NCBI GenBank assembly: GCA_900553815.1
Contig: USEY01000009.1
Coordinates: 8,933-72,932 of the forward strand
DNA length: 64,000 nucleotides
Origin: an uncultured Bacteroides sp.
GTDB lineage: Bacteria; Bacteroidota; Bacteroidia; Bacteroidales; Bacteroidaceae
Direction: 5' to 3'
Shown here: piece by piece, positions 38,756-47,049 of the stretch
Position numbering within the stretch: position 1 is the first letter of the stretch
Layout of the letters: each line of letters begins with the position of its first letter
Made by a program: the position numbers and the translations under genes
The notes under the pieces: model-generated
The model's input: the letters and a program-made list of their open reading frames with translations, nothing else
The model's database searches: none
Told to the model about the DNA's origin: nothing

Positions 38756-39553
38756 TTATTTATACTTCTCGGATAACTCAGCCAATAATTTATCTACAAA
38801 AGTATCTATCGTAATTATTAAGTCTTCTACATCTTGTTTTGATATAGTTGTAACACGCATTCTATCAATATTGGATAAAGAATATCTATGAACAATATTG
38901 TTTCGTTTATGAAGAAATTTCTGTAATTGACTGCAATTTGGTAGACTAACCCCTGCGACTCTGTAGTAAATGTCATTTACTTTATCAAACTTATGGTATA
39001 CTACTTCATTAAAGAAGAATTTATGGGTTTTATTTTCTAAATCAGTGATTGTATTTCCTTTTTCTTTTTTTAGTCTGTAAAACTCTTTGGCTTTTTCAAA
39101 TAATATTTTATTGGTGTATATTAAGCAGAGGATCGTATCAGATAAAAATAACTCCAAGATACTAAATAAATCTGTAAATAGTGATTTGTAAACTAAAGGT
39201 AGTATGTATTCAGGGAGTTTACTGGCAGCTTCTAATTGACTTATTATTGTTTGCATAAAATTGTCGTAGTTATAATAAGCAGCCATAAAACCAGAACATG
39301 CAGCTAACTCTCCGGTGGAACAAGCGTCTGTACCTTTTTCTGATACATATATGGCATAAGGTACCGCCCTTCTGTCCTTATTCAGAATCAGGTTACTTGT
39401 TACAGTATGAGTATGCTCATTGTAGGTATAATTAGAATTGTCTGAATCTGTTATGCCAACTTTACAGCTAACCCAATTTTGTGCATAGTGTATTTGGTCG
39501 TTCGCTATGACATTTCCTTCTACCTTGATGATGTATATATTACTATTATCCAT
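38756..39553 (-). CDS. HEPN-domain-like protein of unknown function
   Basis: 265 aa, A+T-rich. Residues about 1-85 are beta-rich with no recognised family. Residues about 105-262 are all-helical. Near residue 215 sits K-R-N-N-I-V-H-R, an R-x4-H pattern in a helix as in HEPN ribonucleases (R-x4-6-H), followed by a D-V-E-D-L-I-I-T-I-D-T-F-V helix typical of HEPN tails. HEPN proteins are common RNA-cutting effectors in defence and toxin systems, or non-catalytic partners. It lies 131 bp downstream of the restriction-like operon on the same strand, so association is plausible. No signal peptide. Confidence 0.5.
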   Translation of the reverse strand: MDNSNIYIIKVEGNVIANDQIHYAQNWVSCKVGITDSDNSNYTYNEHTHTVTSNLILNKDRRAVPYAIYVSEKGTDACSTGELAACSGFMAAYYNYDNFMQTIISQLEAASKLPEYILPLVYKSLFTDLFSILELFLSDTILCLIYTNKILFEKAKEFYRLKKEKGNTITDLENKTHKFFFNEVVYHKFDKVNDIYYRVAGVSLPNCSQLQKFLHKRNNIVHRYSLSNIDRMRVTTISKQDVEDLIITIDTFVDKLLAELSEKYK

Positions 39554-39684: not shown

Positions 39685-40905
39685 TCATATCTTTTCCAAC
39701 ACCTTTCCCAAATGATATTCCACCACGCCATTGTTATAAGTCGTATTAATAACCTCCAACAGTGCACTTTCCCTGTCTTTCCTATAGCCTACAAAAAGTC
39801 TTAGCGCATCATAACGACGCAAATATCGTTTCCCGTCTGCTTCATCTATATAAGTGTATTTGTTTAAGGTTGTCTGTTTCAACTCTCTATATTCAGTTTT
39901 CTTTTCACCCGATATTATTTGGTCAAAATAGACCTTTTTAATATTAAGGGTTAATATTTTCATACCTTTTGTATCATAGTTGGACACCCTCTTGGTAGCC
40001 CGTTTTTCCAGACATTCCATTTGTGGGTTATAAATATACTCCAGGATGGTGCCATCCATTATTTTTTCTATTACTGTGTCTATGATGTTTAGTGGAACAA
40101 CAAACCACTCCTTGGGTTTATGGACTTTTCCGTTGCTATCCGTAATAGTCACTTCAAATTTTACAGCATCAAACAACTGATGTAGTAACGATTCAAATAT
40201 ATGTGAGTTCATATTCACAATTTTGAATGTTTCTACAATTTCCACCGCTGCCATCAGGTAAGTAGGTTCATTCGCTGCGTTTGCAATACGTTCTTCGACG
40301 GCAATAGTAGAAAAACCTATTTTATACAGATTTTTCTGTGATTTTATATTTGGATTATCTGATAAAGAACGAAGAACGTATATAAATCCGGTTACCTTGT
40401 CATTGTCTTTAATATCGGCGTTCTTGAAAAAATTGTGTGCCGTCTCTTCCTGTGATTCAGTGACAATATAACCGCTTTCCATCACATTCTTGCGCAATGT
40501 CTGGAGCAATATATCTGATTCTGTGCCATTTTCGTAAATACATCTTGTACGCCCGTCATAGCGTTTATTCGTATCGTTCCATTGCTTTTTCTCCATTTTG
40601 TCCAGATATAGCATCTGTCCGTCAACAACATAATACTGCCCGGCTTCGATGTTTTCTGTCTTCGATAACTTTGCAAGATTGCGTATGCCTAGACTAAGTT
40701 CTTTATGTACCTTCTCAAACTGCGGCTTGAAAACAAAAAAGTCCGGGCAGGGTTTACGCTGTGCCACATAATCAGCTTTTGCTCTCTTCTCCATGACTTT
40801 CTTCATGTCATCGGGTATGTCAAACAGCGAACGCTCTTTTTCTGTCATATCCAACAAAGGATCGTTCAGCAAATCTTCCAGTTCCTTATTTACATCCATG
40901 CTCAT
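39685..40905 (-). CDS. GIY-YIG (T5orf172-type) nuclease with C-terminal ASCH domain
   Basis: 406 aa. N-terminal family-specific region about 1-165 (D-P-L-L-D-M near 15-20; Y-E-N-G-T-E-S-D near 125-132). The GIY-YIG domain is about 168-260: F-I-Y-V-L near 169-173, L-Y-K-I-G near 192-196, a catalytic-type arginine in V-E-E-R-I and glutamate in F-E-S-L-L. Residues about 315-406 resemble an ASCH domain (I-L-T-L-N-I-K-K-V-Y-F-D-Q-I-I-S-G-E-K-K-T-E-Y-R-E), a PUA-like fold that binds RNA or modified bases. Its ATG overlaps the stop of the 88-aa gene by 4 bases. Likely the DNA-cutting arm of the neighbouring helicase/methyltransferase system (inference). Confidence 0.78.
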   Translation of the reverse strand: MSMDVNKELEDLLNDPLLDMTEKERSLFDIPDDMKKVMEKRAKADYVAQRKPCPDFFVFKPQFEKVHKELSLGIRNLAKLSKTENIEAGQYYVVDGQMLYLDKMEKKQWNDTNKRYDGRTRCIYENGTESDILLQTLRKNVMESGYIVTESQEETAHNFFKNADIKDNDKVTGFIYVLRSLSDNPNIKSQKNLYKIGFSTIAVEERIANAANEPTYLMAAVEIVETFKIVNMNSHIFESLLHQLFDAVKFEVTITDSNGKVHKPKEWFVVPLNIIDTVIEKIMDGTILEYIYNPQMECLEKRATKRVSNYDTKGMKILTLNIKKVYFDQIISGEKKTEYRELKQTTLNKYTYIDEADGKRYLRRYDALRLFVGYRKDRESALLEVINTTYNNGVVEYHLGKVLEKI

Positions 40906-41168
40906 TCACTTAATAAATTAAGCCGGTCAAATATTTTTAATGCCGATTTATCAGGACGATTACGCATGCTTTTCAATGATGCAAAAAGCATCTTTTCAGC
41001 TAAGTCACCATCTTTTTGCGGCTCACGCCCGTGGGCTTCTACCCAGTCCGTTATTTCCACCAGTTTTAGTGCCAGCCGGTCGTTTGCCGTCGGCACCATG
41101 GCTTTAGGGCGCACGTCATCCAGCAATGGGTCTTCAAATATATCCAGCAGTTCTTTAGGCCATTCCAT
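40902..41168 (-). CDS. 88-aa protein, apparently the detached N-terminal domain of the GIY-YIG protein
   Basis: 88 aa, ATG at 41166-41168. It contains D-I-F-E-D-P-L-L-D near residues 9-17, then H-G-R-E-P (near 46-50), S-L-K-S-M-R and I-F-D-R-L-N-L-L at the end. I recall these as the N-terminal domain of single-chain GIY-YIG nucleases of this family in other bacteria. Here it ends in TGA that overlaps the nuclease ATG (ATGA, 40902-40905), so the two are translationally coupled. Either a natural gene split or an old frameshift. Confidence 0.65.
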   Translation of the reverse strand: MEWPKELLDIFEDPLLDDVRPKAMVPTANDRLALKLVEITDWVEAHGREPQKDGDLAEKMLFASLKSMRNRPDKSALKIFDRLNLLSE

Positions 41169-41248: not shown

Positions 41249-43507
41249 TTATTGTCTTTTAAAATCTTCAGGATTAAAGTCCAATCCCCTCATTTTCCTT
41301 TCTTTTAAATTCTTCATCATTTGCAGGGCTGCCGCCAATTCCCTAACTTTGGGATTCGGGTCGTCTGCTGCCGGTATCTTTCCGTTGTGTTCTCTGATAT
41401 AATCTTTCAAAGGCCCTTTGAATAAGGCTATAGCCTGTTCAATTGTCAGGTCAAACTTTTGCTCGGCTATCGTATTTTGAATGATTTTCAGGGTAGGTGC
41501 GTCAACCGACTTAGACAACACCTCGTATGCCCGCTGGAATGGATTAATGGTGTCAATCAAGTTTATGGACAGCTTGTCTATTTCTACAAAACGGTTGGCC
41601 AGTTTCAGCAGTCTGTTTCCTTCGCTTTCCTTCACTTGTCCATCAGGTTCAAAGGTTACCGGCTCTCCTTTTTCATTGACTATTTCCGAACTCTTGAACA
41701 AAGTGTCCAGCACAACGTGCTGTCTCACTTCCTCCACTTCCTCGTCGGTCAAGTCCGTATATCGTTCTCTTATGACTTTGGGTATCAAGTCCTTGTTCAG
41801 GTGCTCTGCCGTAGTTGAACCGCTGATGGCCCTTACCACCATTTCATCCTGCAAGATGGCTGCTTTCAAATCGTCCAACTGTTCCTGTACAATCATTTTG
41901 GTCTTTGCACTGGACAACGGCTTCAATCCTTCTACCACCACATTTCTCCAGTCGGTGTCCGGGGTTTCTACTGCTTCTTTCACTGTCTTAAAATTCCAGT
42001 TGGGAGCCATTACCTGCTCCATAAGCAGCGAGGCGGTTATGGCTTTTAGGAAATCATTTACAGCTACCTTTACGTCTGCCTGTTCGGCATCAGGCATGGC
42101 TATCATATTGATGAAACGTGCAGTTTCTTTCCCTTCACTGTCGCGTGTGCAACGTCCTATGATTTGGATTACTTCGGTAAGCGACCCACGCACGCCTATG
42201 GTCAGGCAGGTTTCACACCATTGCCAGTCAAATCCTTCCTTGGCTGTCCCCAGGGCTATGATGATATCCATATCATCCGCCTTTTTCATATTTTGCAGAT
42301 AGGCCTGCACCATGTTGCGCTCTTTCTGGTCGTCTTCTACCAAATCGGCCACTTTAAGCAGTCTATCATCCGGGGTACGTACATGGTAGATACCTGTATT
42401 ATAATCTTTGTATTCTATTGCACCTATCAGTTTAATGATTTCAGCCGTTTCGTCATACTTGGTTTTTCCTGTCGACGCACGCGAATTTACACTGGGTATA
42501 TGAATGATTGTTTTCTTATGTGTATCAAGAACCTCGACCAAGTGGTCCAGATAAATGCCGTGATAAAAGTGATAACCCAAGATAAGGTTCTTCAGGTATT
42601 TATATCCGTTCAGCTGCTGGTAATAATTGTAAGTTACCGGATAAAATCGTGCTTCGTCTTCCGAACGCAAAACCGGTACGCCATCTCCGCGGAAATAAGA
42701 GCCTGTCATGGCTATGATATGCCCGTTGGTATGATTCATCACCCGCCGCACAATATCACCCAGCCCTGAGTTTGCGTCTGCACTGGTATGGTGAAATTCA
42801 TCAATGGCCAGCAGGCAGTCGTTAAATGTTTCATCCGGCAATTCTGCCGAAGCATTTCTCAGTGTGGCATGGGCGCATACCAGAATTTTTGCTGTCGATT
42901 GGTTAAAAAACTCACAAAAACGTTCAGCTTTGTCTTTCTCATTGGTTGTATCGCACAGGTTGAAATAGGGTGCAACCTTCCAATCTTCAAAGAAACCGTA
43001 TTCCTTCAGATTCGTATTCCTGAAAGAACGCCCGATGCTTTTCTCAGGCACGGCTACCACCACTTTCTTGATGCCCTGATGAGCCAGTTTGTCCAATGCT
43101 ATAAACATCAGGGCGCGGCTTTTTCCAGAGGCTGGAGGAGCTTTTATAAGTAGGAATCGTTGGTGGCGTGCTTCGTATGCCTTGGCTTGCATCTCCCTCA
43201 TCCCCAACTCGTTTACGCTACTCGATGCGCCGGTCTGTTGGTACTTTATGTCTACTATATTCGTCTGCTTATTTCTTTTTCTATTTTCATTCAGGTGAAT
43301 GACATCTGTCATTTCATGTTTCAATATCTCATACACATATTGCGGACTCTGGAAATAAAGTCCGGAACGCTCGTCAAGCAGCTTTTCGTAGACTTTTGAG
43401 TTATAAACCTTATCCAATGCTGCTTGCATACTCATTCCGTCACGCTCCATCAGCAAATCGACCATATCCCTTGTGGTACACTCCACCATATACTGAAACT
43501 CGCTCAT
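41249..43507 (-). CDS. SF2 DEAD/DEAH-type helicase with extra N-terminal module
   Basis: 752 aa. Helicase core about 110-500: Walker A in A-P-P-A-S-G-K-S-R near 119-127, motif II D-E-F-H near 230-233, motif III-like M-T-G-S-Y near 262-266, and motif VI Q-I-I-G-R-C-T-R-D near 447-455. The C-terminal third has no recognised domain. Residues 1-65 (S-M-Q-A-A-L-D-K-V-Y-N-S; S-G-L-Y-F-Q-S-P-Q-Y-V-Y-E-I-L) resemble the small third protein that often follows DUF3791-DUF3990 pairs. Its ATG overlaps the DUF3990 stop (ATGA, 43504-43507). Predicted to be the ATP-driven translocase of the restriction-like system. Confidence 0.85.
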   Translation of the reverse strand: MSEFQYMVECTTRDMVDLLMERDGMSMQAALDKVYNSKVYEKLLDERSGLYFQSPQYVYEILKHEMTDVIHLNENRKRNKQTNIVDIKYQQTGASSSVNELGMREMQAKAYEARHQRFLLIKAPPASGKSRALMFIALDKLAHQGIKKVVVAVPEKSIGRSFRNTNLKEYGFFEDWKVAPYFNLCDTTNEKDKAERFCEFFNQSTAKILVCAHATLRNASAELPDETFNDCLLAIDEFHHTSADANSGLGDIVRRVMNHTNGHIIAMTGSYFRGDGVPVLRSEDEARFYPVTYNYYQQLNGYKYLKNLILGYHFYHGIYLDHLVEVLDTHKKTIIHIPSVNSRASTGKTKYDETAEIIKLIGAIEYKDYNTGIYHVRTPDDRLLKVADLVEDDQKERNMVQAYLQNMKKADDMDIIIALGTAKEGFDWQWCETCLTIGVRGSLTEVIQIIGRCTRDSEGKETARFINMIAMPDAEQADVKVAVNDFLKAITASLLMEQVMAPNWNFKTVKEAVETPDTDWRNVVVEGLKPLSSAKTKMIVQEQLDDLKAAILQDEMVVRAISGSTTAEHLNKDLIPKVIRERYTDLTDEEVEEVRQHVVLDTLFKSSEIVNEKGEPVTFEPDGQVKESEGNRLLKLANRFVEIDKLSINLIDTINPFQRAYEVLSKSVDAPTLKIIQNTIAEQKFDLTIEQAIALFKGPLKDYIREHNGKIPAADDPNPKVRELAAALQMMKNLKERKMRGLDFNPEDFKRQ

Positions 43508-43980
43508 AATTTTCTCAAATGTTTAATTGCCTGCTCCGTTCCAAAGAAGTATTGGATTGTCATTCCTTTCAAGTATTTCAATCTCTCCAAAAATACATCA
43601 AAAGAAATATTCTTTTCCAAATAATTTCGAATCTGAATACCCACCTTGTCATTGGCAATAGGCCCTATTACAATGTCATATTCATGTATGTTTTTATTCT
43701 CCAGATTGCTCCTGTTTGCAAAGATAAACTTTGCCCATTCCTCTGTATAGCCTTCAAACCTTTTCACAGAGAGGCTACCGCCATCAAGCAAAGCTTCATC
43801 GAAATTGAACTCATACACACGCGGCGGTTGCTCTAACTGTCTGGACTTAAATTCAGCCCAGCGTTCAGCCTGTTGTCTGTCAGAAGAAAGATAAAATCCC
43901 TTCCCGAAATCTTTGGCAGTATTCGACTTGGACAAGTCAATATCCTCTATATCATATACAGTTCCGTGATAGAGTTTCAT
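43504..43980 (-). CDS. DUF3990 protein, ADP-ribosyltransferase-like (candidate toxin)
   Basis: 158 aa from ATG 43978-43980, chosen because M-K-L-Y-H-G-T is the conserved start. L-Y-H-G-T near residues 3-7 and F-G-K-G-F-Y-L-S near 25-32 are the H and Y elements of ART-fold enzymes that transfer ADP-ribose from NAD; a downstream acidic residue (in E-Y-D-I-V-I-G near 114-120) would complete the triad. The family is usually encoded with DUF3791 and is thought to act as a toxin with it. The start overlaps the DUF3791 stop and the end overlaps the helicase start, both by 4 bases, so it is locked into the operon. Confidence 0.8.
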   Translation of the reverse strand: MKLYHGTVYDIEDIDLSKSNTAKDFGKGFYLSSDRQQAERWAEFKSRQLEQPPRVYEFNFDEALLDGGSLSVKRFEGYTEEWAKFIFANRSNLENKNIHEYDIVIGPIANDKVGIQIRNYLEKNISFDVFLERLKYLKGMTIQYFFGTEQAIKHLRKL

Positions 43981-44204
43981 TGTAACCTTCCTCCTTTCCT
44001 GTGGCAATAAGTCGTTACGTCCGTTACCATGTCACTGAAACTTTGCGTGTGCATCACGTCGTAGCATCTGTCAATCAATTCAATGGCTCCAAATTGTTTC
44101 AGGTACCGGTAAGCCTGCTGCTCCGACAAACGATGCTTCTTGCCAAACTCGGCAATAAAAATCACTATATATTCCACCTTATTTCTAATTAAGTCCTTAT
44201 TCAT
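43977..44204 (-). CDS. DUF3791 protein, candidate antitoxin partner
   Basis: 75 aa, helical, no signal peptide. V-E-Y-I-V-I-F-I-A-E-F, L-S-E-Q-Q-A-Y-R-Y-L-K-Q-F-G-A-I and Y-D-V-M-H-T-Q-S-F are the DUF3791 hallmarks. In many gut bacteria it directly precedes DUF3990. Here it lies 82 bp after the methyltransferase gene and overlaps DUF3990 by 4 bases. Likely binds or neutralises the ART-like protein (inference from pairing). Confidence 0.8.
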   Translation of the reverse strand: MNKDLIRNKVEYIVIFIAEFGKKHRLSEQQAYRYLKQFGAIELIDRCYDVMHTQSFSDMVTDVTTYCHRKGGRLQ

Positions 44205-44267: not shown

Positions 44268-44299
44268 CCCGGTAGCCTCTGGTTATTCAAGCTATCGGG
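44268..44299. promoter_or_regulatory. Hairpin across the methyltransferase stop codon
   Basis: CCCGGTAGC (44268-44276) pairs with GCTATCGGG (44291-44299) with one G-T wobble (an A-C mismatch in the minus-strand transcript). The methyltransferase stop (44287-44289) is in the loop edge. On the plus strand a T-rich run follows, so it also resembles an antisense terminator. It may lower read-through into the toxin-like genes. Confidence 0.35.
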
Positions 44300-47049
44300 T
44301 TTTGTTTTTTCGTCATCTTCTCATACAACTTAAATAGGCATTCCAATCGCATTTCGTCGTTCCTGAATGGATAACCTGGGTAGCAACTTTCCACTATATC
44401 GTCCAAAGTGGCATGTGCTTCGCGCAAGTCCTCAGGCATCTTGTCCGGGTCATACAGCTCTGCCAGAGTCTTTTCCGGGTAGTAAGCACGTGTCACCAAT
44501 ACATTTTCGGCGGCTTCCTCTATCTGCTTTTTCTTTCCTTCGCTGATAGTAGGGAAAGGAAAGGTATTATAACAAAGCTGTGCAGAATAGCGATAACGCG
44601 TTTCTAATCTACCTCCTACAGTTTTCACCCAAGTCATGTGCATTCGGCTGGTGAGAATGCCAAAAAGCCAAATGGGGGCATCATAAACAGCAAAGGCAGA
44701 ATCCGAAATTACAGTACCAGCTTTTAAATAACCCATTGGTATATATTCTCTACACTCAGACGATACACGAGGAATAATAATACATTCGCTTAAGGTAGGA
44801 TGTTCACGAAACTGATGGGGACGTGAAGCCAGTTTACGTGCCCCCTCATCAACGCTGTTTAGCCGCATTTGCCTTACTCTTTCTATTCTTTTCTTTACTT
44901 CATTAATTTGAAGAGCGGAATTGAGTTGTTCATCATCTATCCACAGGCAATATCGTTTTTTGTCATTTATATATTCATCTGAGCCTACAAATTCTTTTAT
45001 GAGAAAAGAATAATTTGGATTATCTTTTAAAAATGAATTCTTTTCATAAGTGCTCAAAATTAAATGCCCACCGTCAACAGCTTTTATACCGTAATCCATT
45101 GAAGGGAAGGCTGCTATAGGGTGGTTTTGAGGAGCGATGATGTTATTAGGAAAGTCGATTAAATATGGGCTTATGTTATGAACTTGTCGTTTAAGTTCGT
45201 TTTCTTGATAGATGTATTTTTTGTTTGCATTATCTGCCATTCCAATAATCGTTACAGTAACTCCCGCATTGCTTTTAGCATTATTTTTCCATTTAAATGA
45301 TTTATAGGCAAATGTAATAGATAAACCTTCTTGTAGTAATAAAGGCCATAATATAGAAACTTGTTGTCCTTGTGAGATGGAATTGGTTGTAACAAATGCA
45401 AAGGCTGCTTTTGTCTTTTTACAATATTGGGTTGCTTTATAAAACCATGTTGCTATATAGTCAAGCGATTTCCAGCCTTGACATATTTTATCAAAAACAA
45501 TTCCCATATCTTCCTTATGCATCTGTTCTTGCAGACTTTTTCCTAAATACGGCGGATTCCCAAAAACAAACACTTCCTCCTCTGCCGTATGCGGACATAC
45601 CGTATTCCAGTCCAACCGGCAAGCATTTCCACATACAATCTGTGTAATATTATGCAATGGCAAGGCACGTGTATTCACGCCAAAGCTGTCATGGAACTTG
45701 CGGTTCATCTGATGCTCAGCCAGCCAAAGCGAAAGCATGGCCACCTCATGCGGAAAGTCCAGCAACTCGATGCCGTAAAACTGGCCTAAACTGATGCAGG
45801 AGCCATCTATAAAATCCAATTTTTGGTTTAGGTTGCATTGACGAATTATCTTCAATATATCCATTTCCAATAATCGCAAGGATTTATAAGTGATAATCAG
45901 GAAATTGCCGCTGCCGCAAGCCGGGTCGAAGAATTTCATCTTTGAAATGCGCAGCAACAACTGTCGGCAACGTCTTTCTACTGGTACACAAGCCTTGTAA
46001 TAAGCTTGGGAGGTAATGGAGCCTAAATCCTTTTCCTGCTGAAGCTGCTTTAGCTGTTCTTCCAGTTTTCTGTATTCTTCGCGCAGCTCATCCAGGAAAA
46101 GCGGGTTGATGACCTTCATAATGTTGGGCACGCTGGTGTAGTGCATACCTTGGTTGGCGCGCTCCTCAGGGTTGACTACCGCCTGAATCATGGAACCGAA
46201 TATGTCGGGATTTATGTCCTTCCAATCCAGCTCGCCGCATTCAATGATGATCTGCCGTGCCTTGGCTCCCATGCGGGGTATTTGTATGTGTTTGGCAAAC
46301 AGGCCGCCGTTGACGTAGGGAAATTGCTTGATGACGGACAAGGTTTCGGTCGTGCGCAGATTGCAATCCATGATGTTGAACGCCGCATCGAGGTATTCCG
46401 ACAAATCGCTTCCATCAGGCTTGGTAAACCGGCGGATGGAATCCGAAAACAAGTTCTCCTCAAAAATACCTGTATCTTCGGCAAAAAAGCAGAACAGCAG
46501 GCGTGTAATAAAAATATTCAAGTCGTGCAGGTCGGCTTCGCTGTTGAATTCGTTGTAAGCGCGCAGTTCGTCGTGTAGCTTGGCCAGTTTCTCGGCTGCT
46601 TTTATATCAGCTGGACTTTCTTCTACATAATGTACACGTTCAACATCCATTAACGGGTAAAAAAAGGCAAAGTCACAATAAAGTCTATCTACTTTATTTT
46701 CGTATGTATCTTTTTCTCTAAGGTCGTATGCCAGTATTGTTTTACCATCACTTACAGCTATGATTTTAGGTGTGGCTTTCAAAACCTGTGTATCGTGTTT
46801 CAGGCGTTCTAGCTCATCCGACAGTCCAAGGCTTGAGGCGCTTTTGAAACAGAACAAACCCTTGATTAGCAATCCGTCGAATGTCTTCAAAATACCCTTC
46901 CCCTCCTTGTATCGGGCAATGTCTCTTTCTCCCTTTCCAAAAGAGTATAAAATTTGATAGCCTACCTCGTTGGCAGGTACCTGTGTCTCTTTAAGAGCTT
47001 TAAGTCGTTCTTCTATTTCCTTGTATCCTAATTGCTGCTTTTTAGCCAT
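44287..47049 (-). CDS. MmeI-like N6-adenine DNA methyltransferase with degenerate nuclease motif
   Basis: 920 aa. Order: nuclease-like N-terminal domain (about 1-130), helical spacer (about 135-330, with A-A-E-K-L-A-K-L-H-D-E-L), gamma-class methyltransferase core with SAM motif F-D-P-A-C-G-S-G-N-F near 379-388 and catalytic N-P-P-Y near 515-518, target-recognition region about 620-830, C-terminal helices. This is the type IIL (MmeI) architecture. At the nuclease site, where family members have D...E-x-K-S-A, this protein has D58 but C67-F68-K69-S70-A71, so the metal-binding glutamate is missing. It probably modifies host DNA at adenines while cleavage is left to the helicase/GIY-YIG genes downstream. 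First gene of the operon. Confidence 0.88.
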   Translation of the reverse strand: MAKKQQLGYKEIEERLKALKETQVPANEVGYQILYSFGKGERDIARYKEGKGILKTFDGLLIKGLFCFKSASSLGLSDELERLKHDTQVLKATPKIIAVSDGKTILAYDLREKDTYENKVDRLYCDFAFFYPLMDVERVHYVEESPADIKAAEKLAKLHDELRAYNEFNSEADLHDLNIFITRLLFCFFAEDTGIFEENLFSDSIRRFTKPDGSDLSEYLDAAFNIMDCNLRTTETLSVIKQFPYVNGGLFAKHIQIPRMGAKARQIIIECGELDWKDINPDIFGSMIQAVVNPEERANQGMHYTSVPNIMKVINPLFLDELREEYRKLEEQLKQLQQEKDLGSITSQAYYKACVPVERRCRQLLLRISKMKFFDPACGSGNFLIITYKSLRLLEMDILKIIRQCNLNQKLDFIDGSCISLGQFYGIELLDFPHEVAMLSLWLAEHQMNRKFHDSFGVNTRALPLHNITQIVCGNACRLDWNTVCPHTAEEEVFVFGNPPYLGKSLQEQMHKEDMGIVFDKICQGWKSLDYIATWFYKATQYCKKTKAAFAFVTTNSISQGQQVSILWPLLLQEGLSITFAYKSFKWKNNAKSNAGVTVTIIGMADNANKKYIYQENELKRQVHNISPYLIDFPNNIIAPQNHPIAAFPSMDYGIKAVDGGHLILSTYEKNSFLKDNPNYSFLIKEFVGSDEYINDKKRYCLWIDDEQLNSALQINEVKKRIERVRQMRLNSVDEGARKLASRPHQFREHPTLSECIIIPRVSSECREYIPMGYLKAGTVISDSAFAVYDAPIWLFGILTSRMHMTWVKTVGGRLETRYRYSAQLCYNTFPFPTISEGKKKQIEEAAENVLVTRAYYPEKTLAELYDPDKMPEDLREAHATLDDIVESCYPGYPFRNDEMRLECLFKLYEKMTKKQNPIA

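Follow-up and report, generated by a model that had tools for sequence, protein, structure and literature searches.

Toxin and DNA modification genes within the same operon raise the question of whether the toxin is a chance passenger or is tied to the proteins among which it lies. We have addressed this question for a restriction-like operon in a 64,000-nucleotide stretch of DNA from an uncultured Bacteroides sp. (GenBank assembly GCA_900553815.1, contig USEY01000009.1, positions 8,933 to 72,932; the whole stretch is termed the window below). The operon consists, entirely on the minus strand, of genes for a methyltransferase, DUF3791, DUF3990, a superfamily 2 (SF2) helicase frame, an 88-amino-acid protein and a GIY-YIG protein. 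A preliminary description of this sequence had noticed DUF3791 and DUF3990 between methyltransferase and helicase, and both genes are indeed found there, with 4-base ATGA overlaps between DUF3791 and DUF3990 (43977..43980) and between DUF3990 and the frame that follows (43504..43507). The point that it missed is that this frame does not start as a helicase, but with a third gene of the same cassette, fused in frame.

The helicase carries the third gene of a predicted toxin cassette

DUF3791 and DUF3990 are two of the three genes of a widespread cassette with the order DUF3791–DUF3990–third gene, PADLOC's PDC-M13, and the window holds all three components according to the PADLOC profiles. DUF3791 (75 amino acids; 43977..44204) matches PF12668 (E value 1.8e-22) and PDC-M13A (PDLC04435, 3.5e-20), and DUF3990 (158 amino acids; 43504..43980), a predicted ADP-ribosyltransferase (ART) toxin, matches PF13151 (6.6e-47) and PDC-M13B (PDLC04438, 2e-44). 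The third component, PDC-M13C (PDLC04444, 8.4e-18), follows directly downstream as residues 1–67 of the helicase, which are not helicase sequence. Within the whole frame (41249..43507) it accounts for about residues 1–70 (43298..43507) and is followed by a junction (43268..43297), placed by alignment to an unfused helicase, and by the SF2 (ResIII/DEAD) helicase core (41249..43267; ResIII 6e-10, DEAD 1.6e-8). In other words, the third cassette gene is present in the window as an in-frame fusion ahead of the native helicase start. This N-terminal domain is up to 55% identical to stand-alone third genes and is modelled as four helices (AlphaFold2 predicted local distance difference test (pLDDT) 91.0). 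The unfused helicase, from a Phocaeicola genome (L001), is 87% identical, aligns from query residue 82 and has its own ATG just ahead of the shared motif. The fused form also occurs in a second sequence from another source record (P0001, 752 amino acids), in which 3 of the 752 amino acids differ (two within the first 80), and is therefore not a sequencing slip of the window's record alone.

Away from this operon the cassette is common. In 399 Bacteroidaceae genomes, searched for the helicase and its N-terminal piece, at least 126 rows among the matches listed correspond to the third-gene piece only, away from the helicase, and 170 of the genomes have a match to DUF3990. For rumen genomes, 3324 PDC-M13 detections have been reported (PMC13356809). 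When 53 loci selected by the third gene were treated with one script (one of them, L124, yielded no third gene), the 35 in which all three genes were picked up showed the order DUF3791–DUF3990–third gene. In these stand-alone cassettes the third gene is separate and 4-base overlaps are found at the DUF3791/DUF3990 junction in 32 and at the DUF3990/third junction in 30 of the 35. The overlap at 43504..43507 is therefore inherited from the cassette and, being the cassette's own junction, is by itself uninformative on control of the helicase. The ATGA coupling had been taken as an argument against a casual insertion; that argument loses its original basis, and the tie to the helicase, closer than a casual insertion would make it, consists of an in-frame fusion that arose at least twice (see below).

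Embedding of small cassettes in defence systems as such is already known, since PDC systems were discovered in this way, by 'guilt-by-embedding' inside known defence systems (PMC12988326). The window shares all three components, their order and their overlaps with PDC-M13, a candidate phage defence system, but differs in that the third component forms the N-terminus of the helicase encoded by the host operon and is not a separate protein. It is this covalent fusion to the helicase that is the new element.

The cassette was captured at least twice

Is the fusion a regular feature of this operon? Fifty helicase loci, window included, were read, and 48 of them have methyltransferase and helicase on one stretch. 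Cassette and fusion are present in two of the 48, i.e. the window and L002 (Bacteroides caecigallinarum), and the third gene alone in one (L052), where it shares about 14 bases with the start of the helicase. The preliminary description had argued against a casual insertion of the DUF3791–DUF3990 pair, naming a helicase/methyltransferase/GIY-YIG set found mostly without it as evidence to the contrary; with 46 of the 48 loci lacking the pair, it is a rare guest. Profiles were also run on 68 helicase loci with flanks of up to 1.5 kb, including some repeats of genomes already read, and detected cassette genes only at G002 (identical to L002) and G293 (identical to L052). Among 398 genomes of the G293 genus, 39 have helicase rows and two more have short fragments; G293 excepted, no genome shows a match to the N-domain proper. 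The helicase row of G1311 aligns from residue 55, and the profile screen did not find the third domain there.

At the level of proteins the picture is similar. The N-terminal piece was found in one (P0001) of the 120 best among 8000 scored helicase homologues, the other 119 covering 82–89% of the query. When residues 1–80 served as query against proteins of helicase size only, P0001 was the one match among 10 candidates, and the N-terminal end of the L002 helicase, used in the same manner, gave six matches (P0121–P0126) among 17 candidates.

The two fusions have separate origins. The DUF3990 tree comprises 101 rows. Here the window belongs to a set of 16 (support 97/85) that otherwise consists of DUF3990 from stand-alone cassettes, L002 belongs to another set, of 13 (100/97), and a topology that unites the two is worse by 127 log-likelihood units (approximately unbiased (AU) test, p 1.6e-53). 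Because they derive from unrelated cassettes, capture with fusion has occurred at least twice. The helicase tree (39 rows) places the unfused L001, which has Abi_2 in the position of the cassette, as sister to the window (100/100) and unites L002, P0121, P0122, P0125 and L052 in one clade (95/92). Within this clade, the helicase cores of L052 and P0122 are 98% identical and their N-domains only 61%, whereas for P0122 and P0125 the cores are 95% and the N-domains 99% identical. The N-terminal end has accordingly been swapped separately from the core and is otherwise well conserved.

The gap between methyltransferase and helicase is itself a nested hot spot for defence-type genes. It measures at least 400 bp in 29 of the 48 loci, and there are also loci in which the slot is empty. 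Of the 30 proteins listed for gaps of this kind, 20 were compared with Pfam, and among the families identified are Abi_2 (L001), Bro-N and RhuM (L041), a polyvalent kinase (L042), an AAA helicase (L044), RhuM (L129), Schlafen AlbA_2 (L134), PDDEXK_3 (L135), 23S_rRNA_IVP (L136) and KilA-N (L138). Seven of the 20 have no family, or one below the cut-off only, and such occupants without a family are candidate defence genes. SIR2, HerA and AlbA_2 lie upstream of the helicase in L048, on whose stretch no methyltransferase was seen. These data define a Bacteroidales restriction-type operon whose methyltransferase–helicase gap hosts nested defence-type genes.

A slot that accepts so many unrelated genes also suggests a passive origin of the fusion: an autonomous toxin–antitoxin cassette may have landed here, its last gene may have lost its stop and run into the helicase, and the extra domain may simply be tolerated, with nothing but transcription being shared. 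The rarity of fusion fits this course of events, as does the third gene being last in the cassette, so that any loss of a stop would fuse precisely this gene, and at L052 the third gene merely overlaps the helicase, with no toxin pair. Yet both captured cassettes with visible context, the window and L002, are fused and stem from unrelated cassettes; six more fused protein clusters of the L002 kind exist, five of them nearly alike; and the N-domain is full length and alignable (61–79% identity between exchanged forms, 99% between P0122 and P0125), with no decay. On balance, we consider a purely passive fusion the less probable course of events, though a serious one.

Two further observations concern the helicase family. 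L131 has a helicase of the same family with a long and different N-terminal open extension (823-amino-acid frame), possibly another fused domain, and distant relatives in L210 and L211 (47% and 44% identity, respectively) are on contigs classed as viral.

Predicted toxin and probable antidote within the cassette

The preliminary description had proposed that a toxin pair of the ART type is embedded in a restriction-like operon, which accords with the Pfam matches, the gene order and an ART-like model of DUF3990. The model (AlphaFold2 pLDDT 95.6) has ParT, RES and MbcT as its nearest solved structures, at 8–15% identity, and DUF3990 thus models as an ART fold of the type found in the toxins of RES-Xre, ParT-ParS and MbcT-MbcA. 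The window's DUF3990 keeps all 13 residues that are invariant across 64 sequences (alignment A1), i.e. H5, G6, D24, G26, F29, Y30, A38, W82, F85, R90, D102, A109 and Q143. Of the two ART residues previously put forward, H6 and Y30, the tyrosine is confirmed by this alignment and the histidine has to be renumbered to H5; Q143 is a third invariant polar residue beside them. RES toxins are described by residues R-E-S (PMC12457610). No solved antitoxin was matched by sequence with the DUF3791 and third-gene profiles.

Loss patterns provide indications as to which part may be the antidote. When loci were selected by DUF3990 (70 in all), DUF3791 was upstream and the third gene downstream in 66, the two formed a single upstream protein in two, the third gene alone was present in one and it was missing from one (L200), i.e. 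DUF3990 is accompanied by the third domain in 69 of 70. Conversely, when Bacteroidaceae loci were selected by the third gene (40 in all), 12 turned out to be without an intact DUF3990: six retain intact DUF3791 and third genes with the middle deleted or reduced, three encode helix-turn-helix (HTH) domain, DUF3791 and third domain as a single protein that has no DUF3990 next to it, L056 has a broken DUF3791 as well, L080 has a premature stop and L089 has the third gene alone. This asymmetry (Fisher p 1.5e-5; P 4e-4 after scaling for gene length), with intactness checked for part of the 70 DUF3990 loci, gives indications of an antitoxin-like pattern, in which the toxin is seldom without its partners and the partners outlive the toxin.

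Single proteins combining an HTH domain (Xre-type by eye), DUF3791 and the third domain are located at L082:1769-2437, L087:1358-2026 and L094:775-1443. They look like antitoxin regulators that have been left alone or act on a distant toxin.

The same numbers bear on two other roles of the cassette proteins. The third domain could be an adaptor or activator bringing DUF3990 to the helicase, where it would act on DNA or phage proteins during translocation on unmodified DNA. The anatomy would be the same, the third domain stands alongside DUF3990 in nearly all loci, and nucleic-acid-targeting ADP-ribosyltransferases (DarT, CmdT) are known in phage defence. An activator, however, should not outlive its enzyme as often as the third gene does, and the HTH–DUF3791–third proteins without DUF3990 resemble antitoxin regulators, which makes such an activating role improbable. 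Still less probable, to the point of being a marginal option, is that DUF3990 serves the restriction complex as a housekeeping or regulatory ADP-ribosyltransferase and has no cellular toxin activity. Among the 5 papers listed as naming DUF3990 or DUF3791, no title concerns DUF3990 activity, which leaves room for such a function, but the operon form, the toxin-like fold neighbours and the repeated loss of DUF3990 with its neighbours kept speak against it, as does the location of most DUF3990 genes outside the methyltransferase–helicase operon.

A restriction helicase as a putative antitoxin

How could the fusion work? DUF3990 would be toxic through NAD and would be neutralized jointly by DUF3791 and the third domain. 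If the third domain still neutralizes DUF3990 when joined to the helicase, silence of the toxin would be tied to a sound restriction motor. If a phage then destroyed, occupied or blocked the helicase, or if recombination replaced it, DUF3990 would be freed and would bring the cell to a halt, a back-up protection of the kind known from PrrC/EcoprrI. Anatomy, loss pattern and structural model are the evidence for this scheme, and binding, toxicity and release are what we infer from them. We see about even chances that the N-terminal domain of the helicase is part of the toxin's antitoxin and that the toxin would be set free once the helicase is lost or inactivated. The more far-reaching proposal, which we put forward tentatively and with rather less than even confidence, is that the restriction helicase itself is the antitoxin: the antidote would have been welded on at least twice to form a hard-wired dead-man switch, such that the cell survives only with an intact helicase, and the antidote end would be swappable together with the toxin cassette on an otherwise unchanged helicase.

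Several points weigh against the helicase N-domain being part of the antitoxin. Fusion is seen in 2 of 48 loci, a rarity that fits a tolerated accident too, and this alternative stays serious in view of the few fused loci and of L052, whose third gene lies by the helicase with no DUF3791–DUF3990 pair upstream, so the domain can persist without the toxin. The third gene is a gene of its own in the stand-alone cassettes, so cassette function does not require the fusion. P0121–P0126 were viewed at the protein level, where five of the six are nearly identical, and they may lack the pair upstream. A methionine is present at residue 66 in the window and the native helicase methionine is retained in L002, and an internal start could still yield unfused helicase. 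The two loss samples share some places and were drawn from the rows with better similarity scores, and some of the 12 third genes without intact DUF3990 may reflect plain decay, because DUF3791 is broken along with DUF3990 in L056 and the third gene stands alone in L089.

Next to L052's third gene, a 312-amino-acid protein with no Pfam family replaces the DUF3791–DUF3990 pair (L052:5102-6374).

A helicase-bound antitoxin would have relatives among guard systems. PrrC/EcoprrI is a restriction-linked toxin kept silent by the restriction proteins and freed upon their inhibition by phage (PMC2610378, PMC12409349), and the window, by its gene order, shares with this type Ic system the presence of a toxin gene inside a restriction operon. 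PrrC, however, is an anticodon nuclease, whereas DUF3990 is ART-like and not of the PrrC family, and the window's toxin has antitoxin-like partners of its own, one of them covalently joined to the helicase; silencing is a prediction here. In Ronin, a restriction-like system, modification subunits are proposed to sense anti-restriction proteins and to unleash the short toxin RonA (PMC12409349). The same source describes Ronin as devoid of the restriction part that it once had, whereas the window keeps a helicase and a GIY-YIG protein, and its toxin is ART-like. If our proposal is true, a restriction system has gained an abortive back-up by covalent fusion, as opposed to the loose association in PrrC/EcoprrI, and its helicase would be dispensable only when DUF3990 is dead. 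Roles are thereby proposed for DUF3791, DUF3990 and the unnamed third family of a common cassette.

Other components of the operon

The first gene encodes an MmeI-like DNA methyltransferase of the type IIG family (920 amino acids; 44287..47049), with MmeI-type methyltransferase (MmeI_Mtase 1.2e-101), target recognition (TRD, 9.6e-82), spacer and C domains in Pfam and a match to the PADLOC profile REase_MTase_IIG (5.5e-300). Pfam also reports MmeI_N (1.1e-14). In MmeI, the N-terminal domain is the position of the PD-(D/E)xK nuclease, with E-x-K as its motif; no conserved E-x-K site is visible in the N-terminal stretch of the methyltransferase in 18 of 23 printed sequences, the other five having been printed for another stretch.

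The operon's nuclease is likely to be the GIY-YIG (T5orf172/MUG113) protein (406 amino acids; 39685..40905; T5orf172 6.2e-13), because the second half of the motif and a later Arg and Glu are alike in 16 loci, which had been chosen by the first half of the motif. Between it and the helicase lies the 88-amino-acid protein (40902..41168), which has no Pfam family and a tblastn match in 41 of the 50 loci read. Judged by titles, none of the 7 papers that one search on the methyltransferase/helicase/GIY-YIG operon yielded deals with it. Downstream of the GIY-YIG gene, on the same strand, a 265-amino-acid protein (38756-39553) shows a weak HEPN_RiboL-PSP match (E 2.8e-4, below the Pfam cut-off) and may represent another toxin-like gene of this island.
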